This document shows positions 5,595 to 46,115 of a stretch of DNA of 64,000 nt, in pieces. The stretch comes from Sipunculus nudus (taxonomy: Eukaryota; Annelida; Sipuncula; Golfingiida; Sipunculidae). Each line of letters starts with the position of its first letter. Position 1 is the stretch's first letter. A model generated the notes under the pieces. That model did no database searches. It saw only the letters and a list, made by a program, of their open reading frames with translations, and was not told where the DNA came from. The DNA lies in the NCBI GenBank assembly GCA_026874595.1, contig CM049315.1, positions 60,076,889 to 60,140,888 on the forward strand. Direction: 5' to 3'. Both the position numbers and the translations under genes were made by a program.

Positions 5595-5660
5595 ATGAAA
5601 GAAGTACCGTTGTCACTCTGTGAAAGGAGCTTCATACTAGACGCCATCAGCCAAAAAAAG
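5595..5660 (+). CDS. EXOSC9: EXOSC9 exon 1
   Basis: Codes residues 1-22, starting MKEVPLSLCERSFIL. It ends in phase 0 before the donor GTATAA. This exon was too short for the supplied long-frame list and was found by its match to the conserved N-terminus of the family. Confidence 0.95.
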
Positions 5661-29600: not shown

Positions 29601-32600
29601 ATATGCCATAGATCTTTTTCAAACTTTACTTTTGTATAGATATGAAGGAGGAAATGAAGCCTATTTAAAATGGTGTAATGATTTTTATCAGAAGTGTGAC
29701 CGTGACTTTGTATAGATCCATCTTTGGTGAAGATTATACAAAACATTAAATATCTCAAATGAGGCCAGACTGATTATTCTGAAAATGAGGTGGAGAGGTG
29801 ATATTGGATCACTTTGGTTTTGTGTTGCCACCTCCAACCCGTTTTCTACTTCTGTAGCATATACCCATCACTGCCACTTTACAATGAATAGATTTCTGCC
29901 AGGTTGTGCACATTCATAGATATTGTAAAGAATGAATCCTATTTAAACTGGGATCATGAGTGTGACCTTTACCTTTACTAACGCCATACTTGATTAAAAA
30001 CCACACAAAACATTAGATTTGTCAGTAGTCCTAGTCTGATGGAATTGTTCTGAAAACCATAATGACCAAAGAAGACTTTAGCTGCCACCTGCACTCCTCT
30101 CTCTCTCTCTGTTTTTGCCACATGCCTGCCCACCTCTGCTAATAAATTACAAGTGAGCAGTATTAAACTCAGAGTCAAACTAATAGACTGATTTCTAAAA
30201 TATAAAGTTTGCGTGTGCATAGATGTGTATGTTGGATAGCAGTATACATTGGATAAGACAGGTATCATGTCAAGATAGAGAGAAGGGGTTCTGTTCTTAA
30301 GTCTGGTAGTTGTAGTTGTATCAGTAGTTGTACCAGAATCAAGGGCTGTGTATGATTTGTACCTAAGTTGTCCTACACGCACCATGATCCAGTCAGGAGA
30401 GGGATTTCAGAGGGGGGCAAAGAGGAGCTGCTTTTTAATGTGAATTAAAGAGGGTAACATTAAAATGCCTTAAACATTAAATTTCACTAGATGTCTGCAA
30501 TAGCTTAGCTATCACAAGGGAAGCAACAATGTGTAGAGCCCAGGGATTTCTGTTTTAATGGAAAAACAGATGGGAAAGCGGAATTAGGGTTCAAAAACAG
30601 AATTCTTTAAATACATGGAATACAGTGGAAAGTAAATGAATACTGCAAATGAAGACATTTTTTGAAAATATACAGCAAAAATCTTCCTGACTGTGCCAAC
30701 CATTTTCCAACAGCAAAATTTATCAATTTCGGCTCATAACTGCTACAGTAAGTGCCAAGCCTTGATATTATGACCATGTCAAAACTGATGATATTGTCAG
30801 TGTCATGACATTCGATTTTGCAGTGGTGGCATGTAGTGGTAACCAGTAGAACCAAATTAAGAATTGTTCATGTTCACTCTTTTGAACCAGTAATCTTTTA
30901 CACAGCATAAAAGGAACAATTACTGCCAAGTAATGTGAAAATTCATGGGGTGTAAGAGACCCAGTTGTGGTCTTGCATAACCATATCAGTGAAGCAACCA
31001 TATCAAAACCTAGCGGGAAAGCATGATGATACTGCATGCCATTGTGTCTCTGAGGCAAAAAGACCAATAATATTAATCAACTGGTTTCATACATTTGAAA
31101 TACCGGTAATCACCAGTATGCAACTTAGAAGACAAAGTACTGGTATAGGTCACTATTTATCTAATTACAATGATGACCAACTGTTTGGCTGGTTCTGTGA
31201 CCACAAGGGCCATTTATCACTTATGTGAAGGACCCTTCATAAGTTCAGTTTTAAGTGTATATGATTAACAAACACATCAGTGACAGCTGTAGTTTTACAA
31301 TTTATTGCATTTAAACTATATTATAATGAACACTGAAGGTATCATTATCATCCAAAACCCCTATATCTAAATTAATCCAAAAAATTAATATATGACCCAA
31401 TAAAGTGTGCATTATTTTAAACCTGGTACTGTGATCTTTCTGATGGTATATATGTTTTTGCACTTTTCATTCATTTTCACATAATTATGTAACATTTTGT
31501 AAAAATTTGGATTTTTAAAAGAAACACTATTTTAAGCACTCAGTAACAGTATGCCACTTTTTTGTGGAATAATATTGAAATACATGACAGTATCTGAAAA
31601 ATGTTTTTTGGTTTTCCTCTACTTGTGTCTTTCTTGTTGTAAAATGAAATTTTTAAATTTTTATTGATCAAAATTTACAATTGCTGTCTTAGGGTAGACA
31701 GAAACATAAAAGAGGAAAAACAAAAAAAAATCTTTTTCAGGTATTGTCATGAAGTTTAATATAAGTCCACCAAAGAGTGACTTACTATAACTGGGTCCCT
31801 CAAATAGTGTACCTTTCAAAATCAAGTGAAAAAAAATATGTAAAAAATATGTAAACTAGAATACGGGTAGTCGACAAGCGACTACGTGTATCCGCCTAAA
31901 TCAGAGTGGAACGGGTGAAGTGAGGCATTGATTGAGTGGCAAGGGGAAATAGAGTGTTGCATATTAGCATGGATGTCTGCAGCCAAATTGTGTATGTAGG
32001 TTGCCCCCCCCCTACCACAAAATCCAGAAAGCCGTCCAAGTTGTATACATATGCAAAATTTAAGGCAGAAAAGTCAAACCACTACATGTATATGAGTGAT
32101 TTTAGCCCGTGGCAGACAAACAGATGGACGCTGAGCAAAAATGGTTGCAGGTGACGCCACCAGTTTTGCGTATGATAAAGAGCTATTTGAGAACTATATA
32201 CATGCAAAACTTTGGCCCAATCGGTCAAACGGTTCCCAAGATATGAGCTTGGATGTCTGCTGCATAAACTAGAATGCAGGTGGCACCACCTGTCATAAAA
32301 TCAAGAGAGCTGTCGGGGATGTATAAACCTGCAAAATTTTAGGCAAATATGTCAAACCACTGCTGAGATATGAGTGATTTTATCCCATGACAGACAAACA
32401 GACAGGAGCTGTGCAAAAATGGCTGCAGGTGCGCCACCAGTTTTGCATATGATGAAGAGCTATGTGAGATCTATACACATGCATAATTTTGGCCCAATCG
32501 GTCAAACGGTTCCCGAGATATGAGCTTGGATGTCTGCAGCGTAAACGTGAATGTAGGTGGCGCCACCTGTCATAAAATCAGAAAAGCTATCCAGGATGTA

Positions 32601-35600
32601 TACGCATGCCAAATTTCAGGTGAATTAGTCAAGTCACTGCAGAGATATGAAGGATTATAACCCAAGGCAGATGAACAGATGGACACTGTGCAAACATTGT
32701 TGCAGGTGGCGCCACCATTTTTTGTGAATGTTGTAAAGCTCTCCAAGGGCTACATTTGTGCAAAAAAATTTTCCTGATCGGTCAAACGGTTCCCGAGATA
32801 TGAGCTTGGATGTCTGCAGCGTAAACATGAATGTAGGTGGCGCCACCTGTGATAAAATCAGAAAAGCTATCCAGGATGTTTACGCATGCCGAATTTCAGG
32901 TGAATTAGTCTAGTCTCTGCAGAGATATGAGTGATTTTAACCCAAGGCAGACGAACAGATGGACACTGTGCAAACATGGTTGCAGGTGGCGCCACCATTT
33001 TTTGTGAATGTTGTAAAGCTCTCCAAGGGCTACATTTGTGCAAAAAAATTTTCCTGATCGGTCAAACGGTTCCCGAGATATGAGCTTGGATGTCTGCAGC
33101 GTAAACATGAATGTAGGTGGCACCACCTGTCATAAAATCAAGAGAGCTGTCGGGGATGTATAAACCTGCAAAATTTTAGGCAAATATGTCAAACCACTGC
33201 TGAAATATGAGTGATTTTATCCCATGGCAGACAAACAGACAGGAGCTGTGCAAAAATGGCTGCAGGTGCGCCACCAGTTTTGCATATGATGAAGAGCTAT
33301 GTGAGATCTATACACATGCAAAATTTTGGCCCAATCGGTCAAACGGTTCCCGAGATATGAGCTTGGATGTCTGCAGCGTAAACGTGAATGTAGGTGGCGC
33401 CACCTGTCATAAAATCAGAAAAGCTATCCAGGATGTATGCGCATGCCAAATTTCAGGTGAATTAGTCAAGTCACTGCAGAGATATGAAGGATTATAACCC
33501 AAGGCAGATGAACAGATGGACACTGTGCAAACATTGTTGCAGGTGGCGCTACCATTTTTTGTGAATGTTGTAAAGCTCTCCAAGGGCTACATTTGTGCAA
33601 AAAAATTTTCCTGATCGGTCAAACGGTTCCCGAGATATGAGCTTGGATGTCTGCAGCGTAAACATGAATGTAGGTGGCGCCACCTGTGATAAAATCAGAA
33701 AAGCTATCCAGGATGTTTACGCATGCCGAATTTCAGGTGAATTAGTCTAGTCTCTGCAGAGATATGAGTGATTTTAACCCAAGGCAGACGAACAGATGGA
33801 CACTGTGCAAACATGGTTGCAGGTGGCGCCACCATTTTTTGTGTATGTTATAAAGCTCTCCAAGGGCTACATTTGTGCAAAATAAATTTCCTGATCAGTC
33901 AAACAGTTCCCGAGATATGTGGGTTTATGTGTGGAAACAGACGCACAAACGGACGCAGAGCGCAGAGGAAAGGTCAGAGGTCAAAACAAAATCGGGGCGC
34001 AGCAGTTCACATGTGACCCGAACATAATCCCGGGTTTCGTAAAATTCCGCCCAGCGGTTACGGAGGAGCTCTCCGGACACCTACGCCGCCGCCGCCGCGG
34101 CGTGCAGCTGAAAACATAGTATCCGCAAAACTCTGTTTTGGCGGATACAATTATCAGAAAGATCACTTTATCAGGTGCAAATAATGTATACTTAATGGGG
34201 TTTAATATTAATGGTCCATGGAAACCTCTCCACCTAAGCCTCCCAGTTCCTTGGACCCACCGCCTGCCAGGAGTTTCACTAGCTGTCACACATGAGTGAC
34301 TTCCAGTTCTGATGTCATCTCACAGTATTGGATGATCTTTATGCTTAGTGGTCTGGTTATTTTAGTCTTCTTTTTTATATTCCAGAATTCATTTTGAAGC
34401 TGTATTTTAATTGTATCCCCAGACAAAGTCGGGGGATACTATGTTTTCCATCCGGTCCCGCCGCCCCCGCCGCCACCGCCGCCGCCGCCGCCGCATATAA
34501 ATCTTGTTGGCGCTATAACCCAAAAAATATTTCACAGAACTTTACCAAACTTGGTATATATATAGATATGGTTAAGAGGACGACGCCTATTTAAAATGAG
34601 GTCATGACCTTTACTAGGAGAGTGTCCTTGACCTTGAATAGGTCCAATTTTAGGGAAAATCACACAAATTCTTTAATATCTCAAGAAATCTTGCATAGGT
34701 TTATCCTAAAATCAAGTTGATGGAAGATCATGGATAGGGTTGTCATGTTCCAGATACTGGTGGCGCCACCTATTATTCTTTACTTGTTTTCATGCCGTTT
34801 AATACTCCCAAAATTGCCACCTTACAGTACTGTGAGCATTATAAGTCAAAAACTAATGGACAGATTTCTTTTATATTATGCATATACATAGGTATGGGTC
34901 ATGGGATGATGGTTATTTAAATTGGGGTCATGACCTTTCCTATGTTAGTGGCCTTGACCTTGAATATTGCCATATATGGTGAAAATCACACTCCTCTTAT
35001 GATATCTCCAGTGTTGATAGCCATATAGATTTCAAACATGACTTATATATGGCCCACCACTAAAGTAAGAACCCTATAGGTTCTAGGGTCATGAGGTCAA
35101 AGGTCAAGGTCACTGGACTGGCATTTTAAAATATACTGTGGATGCATTTTAAGCCAAACTTTCATCCCAGGTCTTCCATCTTGAATATATAGCTCACTTG
35201 CCAATAGTGGATGATCCATAGAAATTTTGGGGTCACAAGGTCAAAGGTCAAGGCCACAGGAGCTATCTGTCCAAAAATTAGTTTCTGGATGATAATTCCT
35301 TCTTTTATTGATGTTTGGATTTCAAACTTGACTTGTATTTGACCCATTGGAAAAGCAAGACCTGAATTGATTTTGGGGTCATGAGGTCAAAGGTCAAGGT
35401 CACAGGAAACCTCTTTAAAAAGGTTGTGGATGCAATTTCAGCCAAACACTTCATCTCAGATCTTTCATCTTGCACATATAGTTCACCTGCCAAGAGTGGA
35501 AGACCCCTATCAATTGTGAGGTCACAAGGTCAAAGGTGAAGGTCACAGGAGCCATCTGTCCAAAAATTAGTTTCTGGATGATAATTCCTGCTTTTATTGA

Positions 35601-38600
35601 TGTATGGATTTCAAACTTGACTTGTATATGTCCCATTGAAAAAGCAAGACCAAAATTGATTTTGGGGTCATGAGGTCAAAGGTCAAGGTCACAGGATACA
35701 TCTTTAAAAAGGTTGTGGATGCAATTTCAGCCAAAAAATTCATCTGAGATCTTTCATTTTGCACATATAGTTCACCTGCCAAGAGTGGAAGACCCCTATC
35801 AATTTTGAGGTCACAAGGTCAAAGGTGAAGGTCACAGGAGCCATCTGTCCAAAAATTAGTTTCTGGATGATAATTCCTTCTTTTATTGATGTATGGATTT
35901 CAAACTTGACTTGTATTTGACCCATTGGAAAAGCAAGACCCGAATTGATTTTGGGGTCATGAGGTCAAAGGTCAAGGTCACAGGAAACCTCTTTATAAAG
36001 CTTGTGGATGCAATTTCAGCCCAAAAATTCATCTGAGATCTTTCATCTTGCACATACAGTTCACCTGCCAAGAGTGGAAGACCCCTATCAATTTTGAGGT
36101 CACAAGGTCAAAGGTGAAGGTCACAGGAGCCATCTGTCCAAAAATTAGTTTCTGGATGATAATTCCTGCTTTTATTGATGTATGGATTTCAAACTTGACT
36201 TGTATATGTCCAATTGGAAAAGCAAGACCCAAATTGATTTTGGGGTCATGAGGTCAAAGGTCAAGGTCACAGGACACATCTTTAAAAAGATGTGGATGCA
36301 TTTTCAGCCAAACATTTCATCTCAGATCTTTCATCTTGCACATATAGTTCTCCTGCCAAGAGAGGAAGAACACTATCAATTGTGAGGTCACAAGGTCAAA
36401 GGTGAAGGTCACAGGAGCCACCTGTCAAAAAAAATTAGTTTCTGGATGATAATTCCTGCTTTATTGATGTATAGATTTCAAACTTGACTTGCATATGTCC
36501 CATTGGAAAAGCAAGACCCAAATTGATTTTGGGGTCATGAGGTCAAAGGTCAAGGTCACAGGACACATCTTTAAAACAATCAAGATCACAGGACCAACAT
36601 CTTCAACAAGACTGTGGATTGTGAGATGGAAGAAACAATAAATATGCCAAGTGTCAGTATATGCTGCCAAAATTGGGGGGCTGTTCTTAAAGGGGGGGGG
36701 GGCCTCCTATGTCTGGGGATACTCTGGCACCTGCCGTGCCAAGAAATGTCTAGTTATTAATTATTCTTGAATTTTTCAGGTGTTAAGGTTCTCTAACATT
36801 GCAGTGGTTAAAGTATCAGCCATGACAGAGCTCATACAGAGGGCCTTGGATAATGACACCAAAGCCAGGTGGGTAGCAAAAGTTAAATATGCCAGTTCTA
36901 ATGCACTGAGCCTGAGACTTAAATTTATTCATTGTCTCAGTCTCTCACTCTCTTGCATTTCACTCTCTCATGCCACAGGACTTCAGTCTCATGCATTCCG
37001 ACATATGACAACCATACCCATATTTTTCATTCAACGAAGCTTTAAACTTGTTTGCTTAAATATAATCATGAAAATTTGCTCATGTGATATTTTGTCCATG
37101 TCTTTGTCAGCTTATATGGGTATGTGGTTATTACATGAATATTATCAAAACAGTTTCCTTTACTTCCTTTTTAAATGATACTGTTTTTCTGGCTTGTTTG
37201 ATCAGCCAGGCAGACTTATGAAATGCTTACACTGCCCTTTTCCTCCTGTGTATAATTTGGGACATGATTTTACACTTGGCCATCAGTAATGAGTCAACTC
37301 AGTCTGATGAAGTTTGACAATTTAAGTGGACAAAACTGTTACAACAAGTAGGTTCTTTGTGGTAAAGTGTGAGTACTGTTTCAGCATTCATCTAATCCTG
37401 CCATTTTGCAAGATTTACCTGAATCATTGTTATAACAGAAATTAAATTTATGCTTGTTACCTAGTGACACTTTGTAACACTAATTTGATTTGCTTTATGT
37501 AGAATTCACTATTACAAGTGCAAGTTAACGTATACAAATAACAAATGAGAATTACACTTGACATCAATTCAAATAAGCTGAAGTTGCAAAATTCGTAAAA
37601 AAAAAAAAAAATCAATCAAGATTTGCATACAGGTACATATGACATGATATGTGTGTGTAAGATATACCATTAACTCATAAATAGAGTCTTAGAGACTGCA
37701 CCCTGCTTGGTTCACCTGGGTAGGGAGTTTCAACTACAGCGGTGCCTGTCAGTGTGAACCAGTAAACAAAGCACATGATAAAAGACATATCCCTAAATAT
37801 ATTACATGGGTGTTACAAGGAATGGGTAGAGGTTTGATGTGTCACTACATCTTTACTTAATCAGAGCTGCTGGAGAGAGGTTTGGGTTTGCTGCATCTGT
37901 AGATGTTACCAAGGTTACAGTGACCCAGGCCAACTCAGAAACCATAGATACAGTGAATGTTGACAACAATGAGGACAGGGAGACTGAGGAGAGCATGGAA
38001 GAAGATGAGGAAGATGAGATGTATCCTTATCATCAACTTAACTCAGTTTACTTCTCTGTTTTGTGCTGATTGACTTTCTCTCTCACTGACTAAAATATGA
38101 TTAAACAAAATTGAATGATAGCCATAAATGGAATATTATTTTACAGTCTTTTCATATATATTGGTTATATATACATCAACATTTATATCAAATATTGTTA
38201 TCCTGGAAATCAGTGCTGGAAAAAATTAATGTATTTTTAAAGTCCTTTTTTTTTTTGGTTAATTTATTTTTTTGTTATATGTGGCCCGCCAGAGACCATA
38301 AGGATGGTCCATGGTGTCCTCAGGGAGAAAAGTTTACCCACCTCTAAATCATACTGCCATAAGAAGAGTATCATCAGCATCAACTTTATAGATTTTCATA
38401 AAATATGTTAAACGATTGTTTATCTCTACTAATATACCCACACCAATATACCATATATATTAATGCTCTCCCATTACTTCATTTCAGACTGCTTTTGTTC
38501 AATGTTTAAGTTAACCATTAAGCTATCATCAATATTTTGCCATTTTAGATGTCTGATTTTTAGGAGAGGAGAAGTTTTCTTCAAATATGACAGTTAATAT

Positions 38601-41600
38601 GCAGTGTGATCATAAGTATAAAATTACCAGCTTGTTTATTTTCTTGCAGTAAGAACCTAGCATTTTGTCCATATTATCATTGCATTTTGATTATATAGGT
38701 GTTAAGTTAGTAGAGTTTACAAAAGTTTACCTGCAGTAAATATGCATATATCATATTGACCTTAATATATCTCAGTGGAAGCACTTCTGATGTGAAGATA
38801 CTGGTAAGTAAATAATGTATTGTGCTATTGTTAATATTTGTTTATACTGTATTTTTTTTAATATGAGATTGAATTTCAGCCTTTGTCTGTCTCCTAACTG
38901 GTTATAAGTGTGGTGTCCTGTGTTAGTGTTTGAGCAAGAAACCTGAAATTTTGCTGGTTCATCAGAGGCATTTATCCTTGTAACCTGAAAATTTGATCAT
39001 GTGTCTTTTTAACTGTTCACTACAGGAAAAAAATGAGAAGAACACAGCCTGTTGCATATGTCTATAATATCATCATATTGTTGGCCTATACCTCCCTGAT
39101 TTACTGTGTTTAATTTTAGTAATTTTTTTTTTAAAATATATAAATACTAATATGCAGACCTAAAAGTGTCCATTAAATGGTAGGACTTGACTGAAGTATT
39201 CCACTGAATAAATATCACCCCCCCCCCCACCCACCCAAGCTGAGCATATGTGACCATTGGCCTTTTTTTCCATGTGTGAGAGCACAGATTTACATGTGAC
39301 ATGCATGATGTTTTCAGGCACCAGGTACAGGGCAGATAGGAGAGGGAGGCCCCAGTACCTGGGAAACTGATGAAGAGGCAGCCACAGAGATTATGGTGGA
39401 ACAGAGGCTGCAGCAGCTCAGAGCACAAGATAACGAGGAGGAGCCAATCCTCATCAGCACAGGTAAATACTTACTATTGAGGAGTCCATCCTCATCAGCA
39501 CTGGTAGATACAAAAGAGGAATCCATCCTCATCAGCACAGGTAAATACTTACTATTGAGGAATCCATCCTCATCAGCACTGGTAGATACAAAAGAGGAAT
39601 CCATCCTCATCAGCACAGGAATATACAAATGAGGAATCTATCCTCATCAGCAAAGGTAAATACCAATGAGGAATCCATCCTTATCAGCACAGATAAATTC
39701 CAATGAGGAATCCATCCTCATCAGCACAGGTAAAATACAAATGAGGAATCCATCTGCATCAGCACAGGTAAATACCCATGAGGAATCCATCTGCATCAGC
39801 ACAGATAAATACCAGTGAGGATCCATCCTCATCATCAGCACAGGTAGATATCAATGAGGAATCCATCCTTATCAGGACAGAAAAATACAAGAGGAATTTT
39901 TCATCAGCAGCACAGAAAAATACAAGACTCATCAGCACAAAGCATGCTAAATGCATTTTGAATCAATAGGTTTAGCAGATGGTGTTCTGTATCATCAACT
40001 AGAGAAGACTGTGTTATGTATCATCAGGTAGTACAGACTTTACAAATCATAAGATATTATGGACTGTGTTACGTATCATCAGGTAGTAGACATCTGGTAA
40101 TACAGACTTTATAAAACAAAAAATATTATAGACTGTGTTATGTATCATCAGGTAGTAGACATCAGATAATACAGACTTTATAAATCATAAGATATTATGG
40201 ACTGTGTTCTGTATCATCAGGTATTAGACAGCAGGTAGTACAGACTTTATAAATAATAAGATATAATGGACTGTGTTATGTATCATCATTTAGTGCACAT
40301 CAGGTAGTACAGACTCTATAAACCTTAAGATACCAGGACTGTGTTCTGTATCATCAGCTAGCAGACATCAGGTAGTACCGACTTTACAAATCATAAGATA
40401 TTATGGACTGTGTTATGTATCATCAGGTATAAGACAGTAGGTAGTACAGACTTTATAAATAATAAGATATTATGGACTGTGTTATGTATCATCATTTAGT
40501 GTACATCAGGTAGTACAGACTCTATAAACCTTAAGATACCAGGACTGTGTTCTGTATCATCAGCTAGCAGACATCAGGTAGTACAGACTTTACAAATCAT
40601 AAGATATTATGGACTGTGTTATGTATCATCAGGTAGTAGACATCAAGTAGTACAGACTTTATAAAACAAAAAATATTATGGACTGTGTTCTGTATCATCA
40701 GGATGTGTAGACTGTGTATTGCATCAGCAGTTAGTATAGACTGTGTTTTTGTATTATCGGGGGATCTGAGCATTTTATCATCAAGAAGTACAGACTATGT
40801 TTGTATTATCAGGGAGTACTGGTGGCAGTGACAGTGAAGAAGACGATGTGGTCATCTTGGACCAAGAAGATTTTGGTTTCACTAAAAGGTAAAACAAATG
40901 TTAATATCAGAGTGGCCAGGTTAATGTGGTGACTTGCTGGTGAGGGGGTGATTTCATGTAAATATGACATGTGCATTTAAAAAAGACGGGAAAAGAAAGA
41001 TGGTGGTTTGTTTACTGAAAGTAATTAAATATAAAGATCAGGAATGCCTACATGTACCTCCACCAAGGTCCCAATCAGACTTACACACCTCCAAAGTTGG
41101 ATCACAGGTTGGTAAGCTCCAGAACTGGTACAGAGGCAGTCCCCAAAACCAATGAATGGTCCTAGCCCTCAGGCAGGACATAAATTGCATCCACACCAGC
41201 ACAGGTAAATACTAATAAGGAATCCATCCTCTGCACCACCTGTATTTTCAAACAGGACAGAAAATTCTCTGCAAATAAGAAGGATGATTTTATGATCCAG
41301 ATAACCTCTAAAATTCAATAAACTGTTCCTTGGATGTTACCTAAACCCTTAAGAAAATTCTTTCAAAATCTGTTCATAATTTAGTACCAGTAGTCAGCTG
41401 AGCTTTAGTGGTGGCCTTTTTTAGTGAACCTGTGAGCTTATGCTATGGCATGACATAGTCTGTACCTTAACCCATACTATCAACAAACCAGCAGGAGCTA
41501 GCATCACCAAATCTGTGGCAGACTGCCAACTGTATCAGATTATGCAACAGATCAAGAGTTTACTAAGTGTGTCCAGGTACAGGTTAATAGTTCATTCAGT

Positions 41601-42775
41601 GCAGTACCTGCAGCTAGCAATTAGCTTCACCAGACTTTGGGCAACTGCCTGCTAGCTTGGTCAGGCAAATGCACCTGACTCAAGAGAAGTTTAATGTATC
41701 TGCCTGAAATTTTGGCCTACCAATGCATTTTTTATGGCTTTCTCAAACACAAGGATGGTGTTGCCATCTAAAATGATTTTTGCACAGTGTTAATACCTGC
41801 ATATTTCTCATGAGGTATTTTATATATCAGCCTGAAATTGTTCATATCTGTAACTATAGAATAGCTTTATTGTTAACAAGACTGGTGGTGCCACGTACAT
41901 GTTTTTTTTCACAGTGTGTGTCCCTGCTTATTTCTCAGGAGGGATTTGACATAAAATACTGAATTTATGCATGTCCATACATCTTGGATAGTTTTGTTGT
42001 ATACAAGACAATTGTTATTGGGTTTCATGCATCTGTGCACAAAGCCCAAGAGTGGTTTGAAGTATCTGCCTAAAGTTTGCATTTCCTTAATCTTCGATGG
42101 CTTTCTCATACACAAGACATATGGTGCCACCTACAATCATTTTGTGTTGTGTACTTCCATGCCAGTATTTCAGGAGTGAAGTTTGTGTAAATGGTGCTTA
42201 TACTCTGGTTCAAAATGAATACTTGCATTGTACTTATACATGTCACACATGTACTTGAAAAGTAATGGTCAAGCATGGGAGCATTATACCTGATGTATAT
42301 CCCATTGCAAGGGTTCGCATTAGGCTTGTAGGCCTTGTTCTGTCATCTGCCAGGACATATAAAAAGGCACAAATGAAAACCATTCAAGCTTAATTCAGAC
42401 ATGTTATTTTGTATGCAGTTAGTTAAAGATTTTACAAGTAATAACCATACCTGAAAATAGGTCACTGTGACCTCATTCCAATTAGAAATTGAGCAAAAAT
42501 CTCACTTCTGCATGGAAAACCTCTTGTGGCATTTCAAGAGAGCCTGTTATCAAAATCACTTTTGTCATTTTGTTAATATTTAGCATAAAGCTTTGTATAA
42601 GAAACAGCCCTGTATTAATTATAATTATAGTGGAGTGTTGTCTGCTCTTGTTTGTTACAGTCATCCTGAAAAACAAAGTGGCCCCAAACATGGCATCAAG
42701 AGTATAGACCTCACACAGGCACTCAAGAAACCAGACAAGAAGAAAACCAAGGCTGCAGCAGCCAAGAAAAGATGA
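5595..42775 (+). CDS. EXOSC9: EXOSC9, RNA exosome core subunit (Rrp45/PM-Scl-75), 14 coding exons
   Basis: RNase PH-type subunit of the hexameric ring of the RNA exosome, the 3'-to-5' RNA processing and decay complex of nucleus and cytoplasm. In animals this subunit is structural rather than catalytic. Exons: 5595-5660, 11707-11801, 12862-12981, 18020-18122, 25411-25508, 26868-26907, 27445-27527, 28135-28267, 36780-36868, 37865-38020, 38776-38803, 39318-39462, 40813-40888, 42661-42775. All introns are GT-AG, and the joined frame is 1347 nt (448 residues; human about 439). Residues 1 to about 280 form the RNase PH fold, with family blocks MKEVPLSLCERSFIL, the GIDRGCC strand, LNHDGNIVDCAS and EDRDPVPLSVHHMP. 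The tail is acidic, holds SDSEEDDVVIL (391-401), and ends in a Lys-rich segment (432-448) that resembles a nuclear localisation signal. The start has A at -3 and matches the family N-terminus. AATAAA signals lie at 42961 and 43290. The protein is recognised by similarity to the human protein from memory; no search was run. Confidence 0.96.
5740..7125. mobile_element. Pogo/Tigger-like DNA transposon copy with TA target duplication
   Basis: The two ends are inverted: the left starts CAGTAGAGCGTCGTTATCCG and the right, reverse-complemented, starts CAGTAGAACATCGAATATCC. Both ends are bounded by TA (5738-5739 and 7126-7127). This CAGTAGA..TCG..ATCCGAA terminus is characteristic of pogo/Tigger-type Tc1-mariner elements, which duplicate TA on insertion. 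Inside the 1386 bp no transposase with a DDE triad could be read, so it is probably a non-autonomous or decayed copy. It lies in EXOSC9 intron 1. Confidence 0.8.
7475..8027 (+). mobile_element. Chimeric Helitron-like element (family C 5' end, family A core and 3' end)
   Basis: It begins with the family C 5' hairpin TAGCTCAG...CTGAGCTA and continues directly into the family A core (with a GGTGGCGCCACC box at 7592). It ends with the family A terminus: inverted subterminal repeat GGCGGATAC, a hairpin and TATTCTAG at 8024-8027. The switch of family occurs near 7540. Confidence 0.65.
8039..10179 (+). mobile_element. Helitron/Helentron-like element (family G) with a 145-bp tandem core
   Basis: The 5' end carries AGGGCTCTGC and a hairpin closing with GCCCT, followed by ATAGTGAT and GTC-rich words. 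The core is about 12 tandem copies of a 145-bp unit (for example GATGATTGGTACCTA at 8146, 8291 and 8436). The 3' end carries the inverted subterminal repeat GCAGGGCCCT, a small hairpin GGAC-catt-GTCC and then AACCACATCTAG followed by T. No protein is encoded. It lies in EXOSC9 intron 1. Confidence 0.7.
8141..9920 (+). repeat. 145-bp tandem array, about 12 units
   Basis: Core of the family G element. Each unit holds ATTGGTACCTATGA.GGCTCC, then a GAATTCCAATATGGCC block and a CAATCGCTGATTTTCTTTC block. Units differ by scattered substitutions, and later units are more diverged. Confidence 0.9.
10180..11706. other. Remainder of EXOSC9 intron 1
   Basis: Mostly unique AT-rich sequence. A more GC-rich stretch at about 10496-10870 has a 121-codon open frame on the - strand with no recognised domain, and this was not called as a gene. 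A G homopolymer lies at about 11281-11290. A dispersed repeat sits near the 3' end of the intron (see 11550-11640). Confidence 0.5.
11550..11640 (+). repeat. Dispersed repeat shared with 28575-28650 (inverted)
   Basis: A segment containing GTGAATTTGAAACCACTGCA and ACAACCACAGTAT recurs in reverse orientation at about 28578-28645 with roughly 80% identity. At the second site it forms the distal part of a SINE-like copy, so this is probably a 3' fragment of the same element. It lies only about 65 bp before exon 2. Confidence 0.6.
11707..11801 (+). CDS. EXOSC9: EXOSC9 exon 2
   Basis: Follows the acceptor TTTTCAG and codes RLDGREAFDYRHV..GIDRGCC..ELGDT. The final Arg codon is split (AG|G) across the donor GTTTGT. 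LDGR and the GxDxGCC strand are typical of RNase PH-fold exosome subunits. Confidence 0.96.
11812..11960 (+). repeat. Possible tRNA-headed SINE remnant
   Basis: Contains TAGCCTAGCTAG, resembling a Pol III A box, and GTTCAAATCC, matching a B box. The spacing of about 20 bp is shorter than in a tRNA, so the head would be deleted or the match fortuitous. It starts about 10 bp after the exon 2 donor. Confidence 0.3.
12510..12590 (+). repeat. Dispersed repeat shared with 56085-56150
   Basis: TTTACCATAACAAGACTGCA and TGACCATGAGGTCTG here match TTTACTATAACAAGGCTGCG and TGACAAGAGGTCTGG in cyclin A intron 8. Both copies are on the + strand. The family is not recognised. Confidence 0.55.
12862..12981 (+). 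CDS. EXOSC9: EXOSC9 exon 3
   Basis: Completes the split Arg and codes VLVQVSCEVAEPKQTRP..GLLFVNLELSPMAAQQFEPG. The next split Arg (AG|G) falls at the donor GTAATT. The NLELSxMAAxxFEPGR block is diagnostic of the Rrp45 branch. Confidence 0.97.
12982..13818. other. First part of EXOSC9 intron 3, unique AT-rich DNA
   Basis: No open frame, RNA gene or repeat structure of note was seen. It is ordinary intronic sequence. Confidence 0.5.
13819..13931 (+). repeat. Near-identical direct duplication, copy 1
   Basis: About 110 bp starting CATTAAAGTACCGAGT and ending AACAGGAAAGGGTTAAAA recurs at 15866-15972. The copies differ by one or two substitutions and by the length of an internal G run (about 12 versus 6). 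Confidence 0.85.
13946..15785 (+). mobile_element. Helitron/Helentron-like element, family B (copy B1)
   Basis: The 5' end ATTGTATCGCCAGAC folds with GTCTGGAGATAC and is followed by a (CCG)n run. The core contains GGGGTCATGACC and GACCTTGACCTTGAAT blocks in about 3-4 diverged copies and a GGTGGCGCCACC box at 14603. The 3' end has the inverted subterminal repeat GTCTGGCGATAC, the hairpin TGGCAC-cagcg-GTGCCA and AGAAATGTCTAG followed by T. It is non-coding and lies in EXOSC9 intron 3. Confidence 0.75.
15825..16012 (+). repeat. Duplicated flanking segment (Y1-X2-Y2)
   Basis: A roughly 41-bp segment, AACTGAAGGCTGTC through GGTTGTCCTCC, occurs twice (15825-15865 and 15971-16012) around the second copy (15866-15972) of the 13819 duplicate. 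The layout X-[B1]-Y-X-Y implies a tandem duplication of X-Y before or after B1 inserted between X and Y of the first unit. Confidence 0.8.
16166..17943 (+). mobile_element. Helitron/Helentron-like element, family C (copy C2)
   Basis: The 5' end is the hairpin TAGCTAAGCTGAC-tataa-GTCATCTTAGCTA followed by ATAGTGATGG and GTCTGTC. The 3' end has the inverted subterminal repeat TTCAGCTGAGC, the perfect palindrome GACCCATGGGTC and CCTTGTT. The interior is AT-rich with loosely repeated blocks (TTGCAAATGTATAACATTTATAAA types) and no coding frame. It ends 76 bp before EXOSC9 exon 4. Confidence 0.65.
18020..18122 (+). CDS. EXOSC9: EXOSC9 exon 4
   Basis: Follows the acceptor TTCCAG and codes QTDYGVEINRLLERCI..CVDTESLCIMAGVQ, ending in phase 0 at the donor GTAATG. 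The CxDTESLCxxAG block is conserved in EXOSC9. Confidence 0.96.
19520..23142 (+). mobile_element. Family C element (C1) nested in A1 and itself carrying A2
   Basis: The 5' hairpin TAGCTCAGCTGACTTTAAGT is followed by GTCCGT/GTCTGT words. The 3' end has CGCTGAGC, GACCCATGGGT and TCCTTGTT. Its own body is interrupted at 20044-21497 by a complete family A element. The interrupted text resumes with AT-rich body sequence that also occurs in the C4 copy at 24426. Confidence 0.65.
20044..21497 (+). mobile_element. Complete family A Helitron/Helentron-like element (A2)
   Basis: It starts ATTGTATCCGCCAAAACAGAG, with the hairpin GTATCCGC..GCGGATAC, and a CCG run follows. The core has repeated blocks of about 140 bp, each with a GGTGGCGCCACC or similar box (perfect at 20511, 20642, 20920 and 21069). 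The 3' end is a degenerate inverted subterminal repeat (CTCTGATTTACAC..), a hairpin formed by GTAGTC..GACTAC, and CCGTATTCTAG followed by T. 1454 bp, non-coding. Confidence 0.75.
23600..23680 (+). mobile_element. Family C 3' end fragment
   Basis: TCTTCAGCTGAGC, the palindrome GACCCATGGGTC and CCTTGTTT form the same 3' terminus as in C1 and C2. No matching 5' end lies directly upstream, so this is a solitary 3' fragment. Confidence 0.55.
23918..24316 (-). mobile_element. Family A 5' fragment (A6), minus orientation
   Basis: Reading the - strand from 24316, it begins ATTGTATCCGCCAAAACAGAG with the usual hairpin. Family A core sequence follows until about 23918, with no CTAG end. It is truncated at its 3' side. 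Confidence 0.65.
24426..25050 (+). mobile_element. Family C 5' fragment (C4)
   Basis: TAGCTTAACTATAGCGATGG lacks the inner half of the usual hairpin but is followed by GTCTGTCTGTCC and the AT-rich body shared with C1. No GACCCATGGGTC end is present, so the copy is 3'-truncated. Confidence 0.55.
25411..25508 (+). CDS. EXOSC9: EXOSC9 exon 5
   Basis: Codes VWKVRVDIHVLNHDGNIVDC and ASVAAITALAHF with a split Arg at the donor GTAAAT. LNHDGN is a hallmark of RNase PH-fold exosome subunits. A 16-bp minisatellite begins about 90 bp downstream. Confidence 0.97.
25598..26360. repeat. 16-bp G-rich minisatellite, about 47 units
   Basis: The unit is TGTGTGGTAGGGGCAG, with variants TGTTTTG, TGTTTGG and TGGTTGG in the first half and decayed units at both edges. 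The period of 16 is not a multiple of 3, so all three - strand frames stay open and give three overlapping His/Pro/Thr/Leu-rich frames of 228-269 codons. These are by-products of the satellite, not genes. It sits in intron 5 close to the exon 5 donor. Confidence 0.95.
26868..26907 (+). CDS. EXOSC9: EXOSC9 exon 6 (40 nt)
   Basis: Short exon between the acceptor AAATAG and the donor GTGAGT. It codes the split Arg, then RPDVTISGEQVTI, and joins in phase 0 to HSLEDRDPVPL in the next exon. Confidence 0.93.
27445..27527 (+). CDS. EXOSC9: EXOSC9 exon 7
   Basis: Follows the acceptor TTTCAG and codes HSLEDRDPVPLSVHHMPLCV then TFAFYEQ, with a split Gly at the donor GTAAGT. The DPVPLSxHHMP block is strongly conserved in EXOSC9. 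Confidence 0.97.
28135..28267 (+). CDS. EXOSC9: EXOSC9 exon 8
   Basis: Codes the split Gly, KYVLIDPTDKEEQVMDGKM and VIGMNKHREICTMQLAG, then SMLVNKEQ, ending in phase 0 at the donor GTCAGT. DPxxxEExVMDG and MNKHREIC match the family. Confidence 0.97.
28376..28690 (+). mobile_element. SINE-like element with tRNA-like head
   Basis: The head GGTTCAGGAGTAGAGC..GACTTAAAGCCGGGAGAT and AGCTCAAATCTC resembles a tRNA-derived A-box/B-box pair. It is followed by a central part GTGTTTCACACCC..GAGTGCGCCTTTGAGG. Both head and central part recur in reverse at 44465-44719. The distal part (AACCATCACAAATAAC.. on the - strand) also occurs at 11550. The layout fits V/Meta-type SINEs known from molluscs, but the exact family was not determined. 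Confidence 0.6.
28873..29560. other. Intron 8 segment with overlapping open frames, no gene called
   Basis: A 156-codon - strand frame (28897-29367) and a 65-codon + strand frame lie here. Neither has a recognisable domain, splice pattern or composition suggesting selection. The area may be an old transposon remnant. Confidence 0.4.
29580..30110 (+). repeat. Diverged family B core fragment
   Basis: ATAGATCTTTTTCAAACTTT, ATAGATATGAAGGAGGAAAT and GCCTATTTAAAATGG match the family B core at 14055-14130 and 34535-34600. A second, weaker unit follows. No termini are present. A (CT)n run is at about 30096-30110. Confidence 0.55.
30111..31855. other. EXOSC9 intron 8, unique part
   Basis: AT-rich sequence with no called gene. 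Open frames of up to 135 codons on the - strand look random. Confidence 0.45.
31856..34151 (-). mobile_element. Complete family A Helitron/Helentron-like element (A3), minus orientation
   Basis: On the - strand it starts ATTGTATCCGCCAAAACAGAG at 34151 with the hairpin and (CCG)n run (34082-34100). It ends CTCTGATTTAGGCGGATAC, hairpin GTAGTCGCTTGTCGACTAC and CCGTATTCTAG at 31856, followed by T. The core has perfect GGTGGCGCCACC boxes at 32556, 32705, 32836, 32985, 33393, 33673 and 33822. About 840 bp is tandemly duplicated at very high identity (from about 32340 and 33180). It is inverted relative to A2. Confidence 0.8.
34410..36753 (+). mobile_element. Complete family B Helitron/Helentron-like element (B2)
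   Basis: The 5' end ATTGTATCCCCAGACAAAG folds with GTCGGGGGATAC and is followed by a long (CCG)n run at about 34456-34493. The core has blocks like B1 and then a 289-bp tandem array. The 3' end has the inverted subterminal repeat CTATGTCTGGGGATAC, the hairpin TGGCAC-ctgcc-GTGCCA and AGAAATGTCTAG followed by T. It ends 26 bp upstream of EXOSC9 exon 9. Confidence 0.8.
35090..36600 (+). repeat. 289-bp tandem array with nuclear-receptor-type half-sites
   Basis: Core of B2. The 19-mer AGGTCAAAGGTCAAGGTCA occurs exactly at 35094, 35384, 35673, 35962, 36251 and 36540, a spacing of 289-290 bp. It reads as AGGTCA-A-AGGTCA-AGGTCA: a DR1 pair plus an abutting third half-site. A second, less perfect cluster (AGGTCACAAGGTCAAAGG-type) lies about midway in each unit. 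Confidence 0.9.
36780..36868 (+). CDS. EXOSC9: EXOSC9 exon 9
   Basis: Follows the acceptor TTTTTCAG and codes VLRFSNIAVVKVSAMTELIQ then RALDNDTKA, with a split Arg at the donor GTGGGT. A Helitron-like element ends only 26 bp before the exon, so little of the original intron remains upstream of the acceptor. Confidence 0.95.
37865..38020 (+). CDS. EXOSC9: EXOSC9 exon 10
   Basis: Codes RAAGERFGFAASVDVTKVTV, then a variable stretch ending in the acidic run ETEESMEEDEEDE. The donor AT|GTATCC is weak by consensus, but it is the one that keeps frame with exon 11 (split Ile). Confidence 0.85.
38776..38803 (+). CDS. EXOSC9: EXOSC9 exon 11 (28-nt micro-exon)
   Basis: Sits between the acceptor ATCTCAG and the donor GTAAGT and codes the split Ile followed by GSTSDVKIL. 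Its frame joins exons 10 and 12 exactly. Family similarity is low in this tail region, so the call rests on splice sites and frame. Confidence 0.75.
39318..39462 (+). CDS. EXOSC9: EXOSC9 exon 12
   Basis: Codes APGTGQIGEGGPSTWETDEE then AATEIMVEQRLQQLRAQDNE and EEPILIST. PGTxQIGEG matches the human protein. The donor is ACAG|GTAAAT. The last about 24 nt plus the donor are copied again and again downstream in intron 12. The frame stays open past the donor for about 170 nt, so use of a downstream donor copy at 39541 would add 26 residues in frame. Confidence 0.92.
39440..39960 (+). repeat. Minisatellite derived from the exon 12 / intron 12 junction
   Basis: The end of exon 12 with its donor (GAGCCAATCCTCATCAGCAC, AG|GTAAATAC) is repeated about 11 times as GAGGAATCCATCCTCATCAG plus CACAGGTAAATACAAAT in units of about 39-43 bp. 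At first these are paired as 78-bp units. Several units keep the GTAAAT donor (39541; about 39731 and 39769 in variant form), while others have lost it (GGAATA at 39618, GATAAA). A stray unit lies at 41197-41233 in intron 13. Confidence 0.92.
40007..40812 (+). repeat. 69-bp minisatellite ending at the exon 13 acceptor
   Basis: The unit GACTGTGTTATGTATCATCA-GGTAGTA..ACAGACTTTATAAATCATAAG begins at 40007, 40062, 40131, 40200, 40269, 40337, 40406, 40475, 40543, 40612 and 40681, with degenerate units to 40793. Every third unit is most alike (for example AACCTTAAGATACC at 40321 and 40527), giving a 206-207 bp higher-order period. The true acceptor GACTATGTTTGTATTATCAG|GGAGTACT aligns with the unit, so it is its last copy. 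Confidence 0.9.
40813..40888 (+). CDS. EXOSC9: EXOSC9 exon 13 (acidic/SIM-like exon)
   Basis: Codes the split Gly, then STGGSDSEEDDVVILDQEDF and GFTK with a split Ser at the donor GTAAAA. The SDSEEDDVVIL block parallels SDSEEEEMIIL of the human protein and has the form of a SUMO-interacting motif (hydrophobic VVIL next to an acidic, phosphorylatable run). The acceptor is the last member of a tandem repeat. Confidence 0.92.
41197..41233 (+). repeat. Isolated copy of the exon 12 junction repeat
   Basis: CCAGCACAGGTAAATACTAA and TAAGGAATCCATCCTC reproduce one minisatellite unit, including the donor, about 1.2 kb away and beyond exon 13. Confidence 0.8.
41421..42339 (+). mobile_element. Helitron/Helentron-like element, family D (copy D1)
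   Basis: The 5' end is TTAGTGAACCTGTGAGCTTATG. The 3' end is AGGGTTCGCATTAGGC with a hairpin of GGC..TTGTAGGCC and CCTTGTTC, carrying the inverted subterminal match (GCGAACC/GGTTCGC in the better copy D2). The core has several diverged blocks with GATGGTGTTGCCA-type boxes. It lies in EXOSC9 intron 13. Confidence 0.55.
42661..42775 (+). CDS. EXOSC9: EXOSC9 exon 14, C-terminus and stop
   Basis: Follows the acceptor TTGTTACAG and codes a split Ser, HPEKQSGPKHGIKSIDLTQA and the basic end LKKPDKKKTKAAAAKKR, then TGA. The basic end resembles the Lys-rich C-terminus of human EXOSC9. Confidence 0.92.
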
Positions 42776-42960
42776 CAAGCAGCTGATTTACAATCCAACA
42801 GTGTTCTTATACTGCCTGCCTGTCTAGTGCAGCTCATCCACCTTATGACTGTGATCTCAGGTTGCTGTGATGGTAGTAACATCAACATTACTCATGAACA
42901 CAGGAATCAGTAAAGTTGATCATGATTATATATAAAGCGATGAGTTTATATCATTGTATC

Positions 42961-42966
42961 AATAAA
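42961..42966 (+). terminator. EXOSC9 polyadenylation signal (proximal)
   Basis: AATAAA lies 186 bp after the EXOSC9 stop. A second AATAAA is at 43290-43295, so two 3' ends are possible. Confidence 0.6.
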
Positions 42967-43738
42967 GGGTCTATATATGCAGGCATTACTGCTAGGTGGT
43001 TCCCATGCTAACGTCAGAAAGAACTAAGAGTATTTCAGCACCAAAGAAATCTTGTAGAGAGCTTAATTCAGTGCCCTGGGATATGACAGGATTTATGCTG
43101 ATTAACAACACCTACAAACAAGGTATCTTGGAGAGCTGGTCTTTTGTAGACCCAGCCTCATAACTTCAATGTGATGAAAAATTAACCTCAAAAGGAAGCA
43201 TCAGTACAAATACTTCAGTGCAAAGATATTTGCTGTGGATTTTATGTTGAATACATCATTAAACATCATTTGTATGGATTCTGTGGAATAATAAAGGGAC
43301 TACAAAATGTCTTAAAATTGTTTTTTTTTTCTACATTGAGGGCATATTTTAGCTGAATTAATTGTTAAGCATGTAAATGCATTTAACTCAGGGAGACTAT
43401 TAACAGATGGTATATAGCCAAAGTCTTGGGATATTGTGGCAACTGTTTAGGCTGTGTTTCCATGTATGCTTGCATGCATGAAATCAGCTTATGTGCAAAT
43501 TTGCATGGAAATTCACTCTTATGATTTATTAACTGTGGTGTTTCCATGTTGTCAGAGAATATGCGTGAAGAATGCTACAGGAGCAATCAGAAGCACACAG
43601 GGGTGTTATGTAGTCATGTTTGCATCAAGTTTCATTGCTGTACAGTTTCATATGCAGGTAACAAACTTTTCCTTTTAGTTTTTAGTCTTAAAATGGAACA
43701 GTGATATTGAAGAAGGGTGATTCTATTGAAGTAGACTA

Positions 43739-44060
43739 ATTATCCCCTGCCTCAGAGGAGCAGGGGATATAGTGATCTGCTCCTTCTGTCTGTCCGTCCA
43801 TAAACAATTTTATGTGATGCTTGAAAAGTTTTACTTTGGGTCTCCAGAGCTGATTAGGTTTTAGTCACACTTTGATGATTTTTTTATTTTTTATGATTTT
43901 TTTTATACAAAATATTTTATATTTCATATGTGACTTTATTTCTCAACAAGTTTAACTGGGATCTACTTCTTATTGGAGTAGCAGGTGCATTTTAAGGGTT
44001 TCCAGAGTTGATAAGGTTTTGGTCACACTTGAATGATTTTTCGATTTTTATAAGCCCATC
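43739..44060 (+). mobile_element. Family E 5' fragment with strong hairpin
   Basis: The perfect hairpin ATCCCCTGC-ctcagagga-GCAGGGGAT is followed by ATAGTGATC and CTGTCTGTCCGTCC. This is the same order of 5' modules seen in families C and G. A short AT-rich body follows, and no matching 3' end was found. Confidence 0.5.
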
Positions 44061-44064
44061 TTGG

Positions 44065-45170
44065 ACGGGATGTATTATGGTATACCTAAAGTATTTTCGT
44101 CCATAGATCTGTCTGTCTGTCGATTAACTTTTAGTGTAGTTGCGATAGCTAACCAGGGCTTTGATGGATTTTTATGAAACTCACCATAACTACTTAACAA
44201 TAGATTATTCTACCTGAGTTCGATTTAAGATAAAATCCCCTCATATTTAAATGAGGTCAGAGGTCACAAGGCTACTTTGTGGTGTCACCGCAATAACTTA
44301 CAAGGAATATGATGGACTTTGATCAAACTCAGCAAAATTTTTTTTAAAGATTTTTTTGTTTGAGGTAACTGCCTCCAATTTTTTTATGCTTTGATTAACT
44401 AAGTATATGTACATCTGCAGAGATCCATTTCCGGTTATGGACTACACGACAGTGGCTTAAATTAGTTTTTTTCCAGGTTTCAACTAGGTTCAGTATACTA
44501 CTGCTGTGAACCCTGGATATGTGTCATCCCTTTTACTGGGTCACAACACCAAGGAACCCCCAAAAGGCACACTTGTTTGTGAGTGAAACACGACTAATGA
44601 GCATCTGGGTGGATCCTTGGTGGGGTCCGACCACGAAAATCTTACCGCCTTGGTTGAGATTCCAACTCACAATCTCCCGTCTTTGAGTCCTGCGCTCTTC
44701 CCCTGAGCCATGGAAGCAGGTGACTCAGCAAAAAAATTAGTCAATATAATATCTTGCCTATTTAAATTTCCAGCAAAATCCACACATATTTAATAAGGTC
44801 AGAGGTCACACAAATTTACTTGCCGAAAAACTTATGGATTTTCATGAAACTCAATAAACATATATATCTATAAAATCCACGCATATTTAATGAGGTCAGA
44901 AGTCACCAGATACACAACAGGGGTATTGTGCTTTTGTTATGAATTGTTTTATACAAAATTTTATACAATATATATATATATACACCTAATTATAATAGTA
45001 GGTGCATCCTGTAAGCCACTTTCCATATTGGCAGCATTTTAGGTTCTCTGATTTAGCCTGTACAGTGTTTTTGGTCAGTTCTGTGACAGTGAGGTGTGTG
45101 TGTGATTGTGTGTACACCTGTCTCACATTCCCGTTTGGCGGGGGAAACAGTCCTCTTGACATTTTATAGT
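44065..45170 (+). mobile_element. Possible family F element interrupted by a SINE-like copy
   Basis: CCCATCTTGGACGGGATG, then TCTGTCTGTCTGTCG words, open the segment. ATTTAATGAGGTCAGAGGTC blocks repeat in the body, and CATTCCCGTTTGGCGGGGGA near 45127-45146 resembles an inverted 3' terminus. The ends are not confirmed by a second copy. Confidence 0.35.
44465..44719 (-). mobile_element. SINE-like element, minus orientation
   Basis: On the - strand the head CCATGGCTCAGGGGAAGAGC fits a Pol III A box and GAGTTGGAATCTC a degenerate B box. The central part GTGTTTCACTCACAAAC..GTGTGCCTTTTGGGGG matches the copy at 28376 (+). Two independent copies in opposite orientation support a mobile element. Confidence 0.65.
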
Positions 45171-45229
45171 ACTATATATAAAGCAGTCATTGGCCAGCAT
45201 CACTTAAGCATCTTTATTATCCAACAAAC

Positions 45230-45420
45230 AGATGAAGGATCGTTTTGATTTTTAGGTCACACTCAGCGTTAAAGGCCAAGGACACAGGACCCTCTTCCTG
45301 AAAAAGTTTGTGGACCCATATAAAGCCAAACCTTTTGACTAAAATCTTTCATCTTGCACATATGGCTCACCCACCCACGGATGAAGAATCCTTTAGATTT
45401 GGGGTCATTGTTTGACATCC
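45230..45420 (+). repeat. Diverged copy of the 289-bp family B core unit
   Basis: TTTAGGTCACACTCAGCG, AGTTTGTGGACCCATATAAA and CTTTCATCTTGCACATATGG match the array unit at 35090-36600. Confidence 0.6.
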
Positions 45421-46115
45421 GTCCTATGTTCATTTCCATTGTTTTATGTCCCTCTCCCCATTGTTTGATGTCCCTCTCCCAATGTTCATTTTCATGGTTT
45501 TACGTCCCTCTGCCATTCTACATTCACCTCATATTGGTTTCCATGGTTTAACATCCCTCTCACAATGTTAGTTTCCATTGTTTGACATCCCTCTTCCCAT
45601 GTTCATTTCCATTGTTTTATGTCCCTCTCCCCATGTTCATTTCCATGGTTTTACGTCCCTCTGCCATTCTACGTCGTCGTCATATTGGTTTCCATGGTTT
45701 TACATCCCTCTCCCAATGTTAGATTCCATTGTTTGACATCCCTCTTCCCATGTTCATTTCCATTGTTTTATGTCCCTCTCCCCATGTTCATTTCCATGGT
45801 TTTATGTCCCTCTGCCATTCTACATCCACCTCATATTGGTTTCCATGGTTTAACATCCCTCTCCTAATGTTAGTTTCCATTATTTGACATCCCTCTCTCC
45901 ATGTTCATTTCCATATTTTTACGTCCCTCTCCCCATGTTCATTTCCATTGTTTTGTCCCACTCCCCATGTTCATTTCTATGGTTTTACGTCCCTCTGCCC
46001 ATGTTCATTTCCATTGTTTTACGTCCCTCTCCCTATGTTCATTTTAATTGTTTTAAGTCCCTTCTCCCCATGTTCAATTCCGTTGTTTTATGTCCTTCTC
46101 CCCATGTTGGTTTCC
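45420..46115 (+). repeat. 34-bp minisatellite with 151-bp higher-order period
   Basis: The basic unit TGTTCATTTCCATTGTTTTA plus TGTCCCTCTCCCCA repeats about 20 times. GCCATTCTAC..ATATTGG landmarks at 45512, 45663 and 45814 show a 151-bp higher-order unit of mixed 34-bp and longer subunits. Open frames crossing it are repeat by-products. Confidence 0.9.

Follow-up and report, generated by a model that had tools for sequence, protein, structure and literature searches.

EXOSC9 intron 12 is probably a two-sided mirage, formed by ordinary turnover of two independent minisatellites

The 64,000-nt stretch of DNA analyzed here (the window) carries on its plus strand, from position 5595 onward, a gene detected by tblastn with the human EXOSC9 protein sequence. 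Its identity as EXOSC9/RRP45 is borne out by the assembled protein, whose best PDB match is a solved RRP45 chain (E 2.8e-138). Based on tblastn, splice sites and reading frame, the gene encodes 448 residues in 14 coding exons, and the original prediction was right in its gene identity, its exon numbering and its coordinates for exons 12 and 13. Exon 12 ends with ...DNEEEPILISTG, exon 13 starts with STGGSDSEEDDVVILD, and the final exon is rich in lysine. The exons of concern here are:

39318-39462, plus strand: exon 12, placed by tblastn, splice sites and frame, and by the PDB match of the assembled protein
40813-40888, plus strand: exon 13, encoding the acidic SDSEEDDVVILD, with its first 7 nt inside the acceptor-array match described below
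42661-42778: exon 14, with the stop codon

Two other introns of the gene display features of their own. Intron 10 (38021-38775), with the donor GTATCCTT and a CCTTAAT shortly upstream of its acceptor, looks like a minor-spliceosome (U12-type) intron by its resemblance to the consensus. In intron 5, a G-rich 16-nt unit, GGCAGTGTGTGGTAGG, is repeated about 46 times (25614-26353).

Intron 12 is 1,350 nt long, and 88% of it is covered by tandem arrays detected by TRF at the thresholds used. At its donor end TRF delineates an array spanning 39447-39925 (period 37, 12.7 copies), the start of which lies inside exon 12. A single regular expression recovers 12 copies in register, the true exon 12 end included, with successive spacings of 41, 37, 41, 37, 37, 37, 37, 38, 37, 39 and 37 nt; this count excludes a thirteenth, degenerate match with its end at 39940. 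The elements of the donor-side family are:

39428 to the end of exon 12: the last ~35 nt of the exon, encoding about DNEEEPILISTG, the exonic member of the array; the repeat families reach back to 39428
39463-39925, plus strand: mirage array of the donor side, in which a ~37-nt unit is present 11 times in register within the intron (TRF, register and shuffle test)
39463-39540 and 39541-39618, plus strand: recent 78-nt tandem duplication, with one difference in 78 nt, at 39484
41188-41252, plus strand: stray donor unit on the far side of exon 13, within intron 13 (best blastn E 2.3e-9), holding an exact 16-mer of the unit

The GT at the donor position is kept in eight of the 12 register copies, including seven of the 11 intronic ones (39503, 39540, 39581, 39655, 39729, 39767 and 39843). 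The earliest of these, 39503, lies 41 nt downstream of the true donor, reads CTG/GTAGAT and shifts the frame; the copy at 39540/39541 had originally been taken for the first extra donor and is in fact the second. From -3 to +6 the donor at 39540 does not differ from the true one, and the exon end plus donor agree with this copy in 30 of 33 columns. When the last 30 nt of exon 12 were compared with their own intron, the score was 36, against a maximum of 26 among 200 Markov shuffles. Each of the other 11 EXOSC9 donors tested was equaled or exceeded by at least eight of 200 shuffles, the closest being 38020 (8/200), in a test that predated the inclusion of exon 11 in the gene model and hence counted 38021-39317 as one intron. 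In a similar later test the two sides of exon 11 scored 15 and 24, below their own shuffle maxima. The newest copies are the near-identical pair listed above and the others have diverged, pointing to turnover within the array; the likeness of the copies to the exon drops with distance (Spearman -0.71, p 0.015, n=11). Since the shared exon text belongs to the coding tail and the similarity falls with distance from it, we infer that the donor array was copied from exon 12.

Most donor units (39436-39880) also contain a GAGGA...TCCTC inverted repeat, which is already present in exon 12. Folding of the first 231 nt around the donor is more favorable than that of shuffled sequence (z -4.0), mainly through this short hairpin within the units; the hairpin could have served as a seed for slippage, and we draw nothing further from the fold. 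No Rfam family matched at gathering scores within 36000-46000 of the window. The stray unit in intron 13, overlooked in the original prediction, sits at a place for which simple slippage does not account.

The remainder of the intron is largely taken up by a second array:

39980-40812, plus strand: acceptor-side array, ~69-nt unit with a 206-nt higher-order period (TRF, repeat search and shuffle test)

Ten upstream copies have an AG at the acceptor position, the copies having been located by requiring it. The segment 40776-40819, comprising 37 intronic and 7 exonic nt, shares 36 of 45 alignment columns with the array, with a score of 43, better than chance as judged from the maximum of 29 among 200 shuffles; the other 11 EXOSC9 acceptors tested all fell within their own shuffles. 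It had been proposed that the 69-nt unit ends exactly at exon 13. The match does reach the acceptor, but the regular units stop at 40702 by TRF, and the final ~110 nt up to the true acceptor are degenerate. An origin of this array from exon 13 is only possible, because the match enters the exon by just 7 nt and the first 18 nt of exon 13 alone find no match in the array (score 10; ten best shuffles 18-23).

Thus, the repeat structure is real and both splice junctions are represented in the arrays of intron 12, neither match being reached by any of 200 shuffles. A common origin of the two arrays was rejected upon direct comparison (score 22; maximum of 100 shuffles 31). In the 1.43-Gb assembly both occur at one place only, by searches that give lower bounds, and the exact 16-mer CAGCACAGGTAAATAC has four sites, all within EXOSC9 and one of them in intron 13. 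A mobile-element origin was likewise rejected, as these searches showed no dispersal of the unit and met both arrays at this locus only.

Repeats of this sort have precedents. Minisatellite-like duplications of intron-exon boundaries in the amphioxus globin genes have been termed “mirages”, after the Adh gene (PMC3087553). In these genes the repeats involve boundaries of both types, 5' and 3', AG/GT signals occur in many copies, and haplotypes differ, one gene having six versus three units; splicing appears regular by RT-PCR, and a role in intron gain was proposed (PMC3087553). In amphioxus PGBD5, boundary repeats adjoin exon 3 and exon 4 with counts that differ between two assemblies and with little evidence from mRNA, and the Adh and troponin C mirages are reported to yield no aberrant mRNA (PMC3902484). 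The original prediction, which knew of no described case with both junctions amplified, is weakened on this point by these reports of 5' and 3' amplification in amphioxus (PMC3087553, PMC3902484). EXOSC9 intron 12 is a mirage, a kind already described. Like the amphioxus mirages of Adh, the globins, troponin C and PGBD5, its tandem units span the boundary (about 35 exonic nt on the donor side and 7 on the acceptor side), carry splice signals in many copies and have minisatellite unit lengths. It is unlike them, as described in the globin and PGBD5 reports, in that arrays occur at both ends of one intron and jointly make up nearly all of it. In the mirage literature searched, we found no intron with both ends amplified and no mirage outside lancelets. 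The cases named there are all cephalochordate, whereas the host of this EXOSC9 gene is probably not. Innexin searches of the assembly yielded 24 matches, of which 10 are near full-length, and a lancelet-type GFP probe gave no match, an empty answer that is uninformative by itself; these searches suggest a protostome-like animal and not a lancelet, short of proof. A lancelet host, first suspected on account of lancelet chromosome numbers, is therefore not supported. A haemocyanin probe for a mollusc likewise gave no match, which carries no information.

More distant parallels come from other systems. In human segmentally duplicated genes, minisatellite expansion at exon-intron boundaries, with units averaging 30 bp, alters exon and intron length (PMC2812944); those repeats were compared across paralogues and have transcript support, while the EXOSC9 case is a single place in one assembly. 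Introns have also been gained via tandem duplication of an AGGT-containing segment, in one case across an existing intron-exon boundary (PMC4974935). As in that process, the tandem duplications in EXOSC9 carry ready-made splice signals; unlike it, they appear to have enlarged an intron rather than created intron 12. Intronic minisatellites in Caenorhabditis elegans have been linked to alternative splicing and are not presented there as copies of the junctions of their own gene (PMC4039745).

Based on the above, we consider it probable that intron 12 is a two-sided mirage, in which two independent minisatellites arose by ordinary repeat turnover with no need to invoke function, and in which mostly 39462 and 40813 are used. 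Under this proposal, local tandem duplications that included the boundary of exon 12 and its donor would have founded the donor minisatellite, and separate duplications adjoining the exon 13 acceptor would have founded the second, independent one. Both arrays would then have grown by slippage or unequal exchange, with the duplicated junctions being tolerated as long as each end retained one good site. The spliceosome would mostly join 39462 to 40813, with 39540 having at most a minor share. By analogy with amphioxus, we infer that the extra splice sites are silent, and the arrays are probably harmless to splicing.

We then examined the coding consequences of the extra sites by translating all 88 pairings of the eight GT donors with the 11 AG acceptors. 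Only two remain open to the natural end, namely the normal 39462 to 40813 and the pairing of 39540 with 40813, which adds 26 residues:

39541-39546, plus strand: sole extra donor in frame with the exon 13 acceptor, adding GKYLLLRSPSSSALVDTKEESILIST

The suggestion that the donor copy 78 nt downstream keeps the frame and would insert 26 residues therefore stands. The accompanying idea, that copy number would govern a family of isoforms, can largely be dismissed for this allele: with two of 88 pairs open, and one of these normal, such a family is unavailable and just one extra isoform is available. The frame of exon 12, continued into the intron, runs to a stop at 39630, and that of exon 13, followed backwards, to one at 40767. 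The acceptor ladder was rejected as a source of in-frame isoforms, since none of its 10 upstream copies offers an open path.

A SUMO-interacting motif in the C-terminus of EXOSC9/Rrp45 is reported to be required for senataxin binding (PMC8683630, PMC10605189). Intron 12 interrupts the stretch PILIS...SDSEEDD, which by eye resembles the human tail APIILSDSEEEE, with PILIS paired to human PIILS; HMMER aligned the PILIS region otherwise. The view that the amplified exon text belongs to a conserved part of EXOSC9 goes back to this pairing by eye. We regard the stretch as a candidate SUMO-interacting motif. The 39540 insert ends with KEESILIST(G), an echo of EEEPILISTG, and the ILIS core would be repeated at this SUMO-interacting-motif-like site. 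Given a donor identical from -3 to +6 and surroundings that agree in 30 of 33 columns, some use of 39540 would not be surprising.

These features allow an alternative in which the repeats form a functional splice ladder, with 39540 and 39462 both being used to yield, alongside the normal protein, a 474-residue EXOSC9 in which another hydrophobic segment, ESILIST, precedes the acidic stretch and binding to SUMO-modified partners is altered. In its favor are the uniqueness of 39540 to 40813 as the only extra in-frame pair, the identity of this donor to the true one over -3 to +6, the echo of the motif in the insert and the reported need for the C-terminal motif of EXOSC9 in senataxin binding (PMC8683630). 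However, one length in three would keep the frame anyway, the copy one higher-order step further on, at 39618, already lacks the GT, and the amphioxus mirages are reportedly spliced normally; furthermore, the motif assignment goes back to the by-eye likeness to the human tail, which HMMER did not align. We therefore regard the functional ladder as improbable. A more elaborate version strikes us as very unlikely: turnover of the array would make and destroy in-frame donors, so that individuals would carry one or two hydrophobic SUMO-binding cores, tuning the link between the exosome and SUMO-modified partners such as senataxin, and the same junction-seeded process would operate at thousands of introns. 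Alternatively, the repeated donors and the AG/GT-bearing copies might mediate recursive splicing, with stepwise removal of the intron, or buffer the splice sites against mutation. CAG/GTA is indeed found in six of the 10 upstream acceptor copies, but an intron of merely 1,350 nt, the loss of frame with all extra donors but one, and the fact that a second good donor is a competitor and not a back-up render this extremely improbable.

A different kind of alternative is that contact between arrays and junctions arose by chance, in an array-rich genome where intronic arrays run into exon ends with no origin from the junction itself. Tandem arrays account for 22.7% of the EXOSC9 intron sequence, and TRF arrays touch one of the 26 EXOSC9 junction sides where circular shifts predict 4.8 (P = 0.97), a count in which the degenerate acceptor end of intron 12 escapes TRF. 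A preference of arrays for junctions is not supported by these figures, which are compatible with chance contact, and junctions are not favored targets but merely unspared. Against chance contact, about 35 nt of exon text lie within the donor unit, placing the exon end inside the array and not beside it. Hence, we find chance contact unlikely for the intron as a whole, though it may hold for the acceptor array.

As a control, 40 other exons of the same genome were hand-picked for shortness (34 of 138 kinase and six of 150 helicase search rows), so that the resulting rate is rough. Among their 80 junction sides, three scored at least 30 (L062, L086 and L074), of which L074 was excluded on visual inspection, being a plain intronic duplication with two copies and away from the junction. 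A wider pass, which overlaps the first set (40 loci plus 12 earlier ones), covered 53 donor and 54 acceptor sides, 107 in all, and returned 11 rows. Set aside were L029 (four rows; a repeat within a stretch that reads open), L058 (no better than its shuffles), L063 (a dispersed 279-nt repeat with an unclear exon edge) and L088 (AT-rich and marginal). Four loci were kept:

L062: donor ladder, 65-nt unit with 17.4 copies in the fetched stretch; the exon end ...TACTCCACTAAG, followed across the junction by GTAGATACAC, lies inside the unit
L086: acceptor ladder, three upstream AG copies, such as GTATTGTGACTTCCAG
L056: array beside the junction, starting 8 nt into the intron
L079: array beside the junction, with the similarity stopping 15 nt before the exon

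The sequence GTAGATACAC is present in 17 copies in the L062 stretch. Thus, ladders with splice signals were observed at two of the 107 sides, and arrays adjoining the junction at two more.

The main news would be a host other than a lancelet. A two-sided mirage in what is probably a different phylum, together with the further cases in the same genome, suggests a general route of intron lengthening, and the same route may furnish spare splice sites and sometimes new introns. Intron 12 also offers a natural setting in which to see how the spliceosome selects one of several identical donors lying close together.

Tandem units of ~278-280 nt, several with GTGGCGCCACC, were additionally observed in the window at 18867-21340, 32090-33919 and 50183-51478, and the unit apparently occurs at another locus too (L063). 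Of the helicase loci L031-L055, which are mostly bacterial-looking, only L033 and L036 were used above. One set of helicase matches, with equal scores and lying in long open frames, was repeated across many small contigs (C61, C62, C66, C69, C72, C74, C77, C83, C89 and C90), which look like several near-identical bacterial genomes, perhaps those of symbionts.
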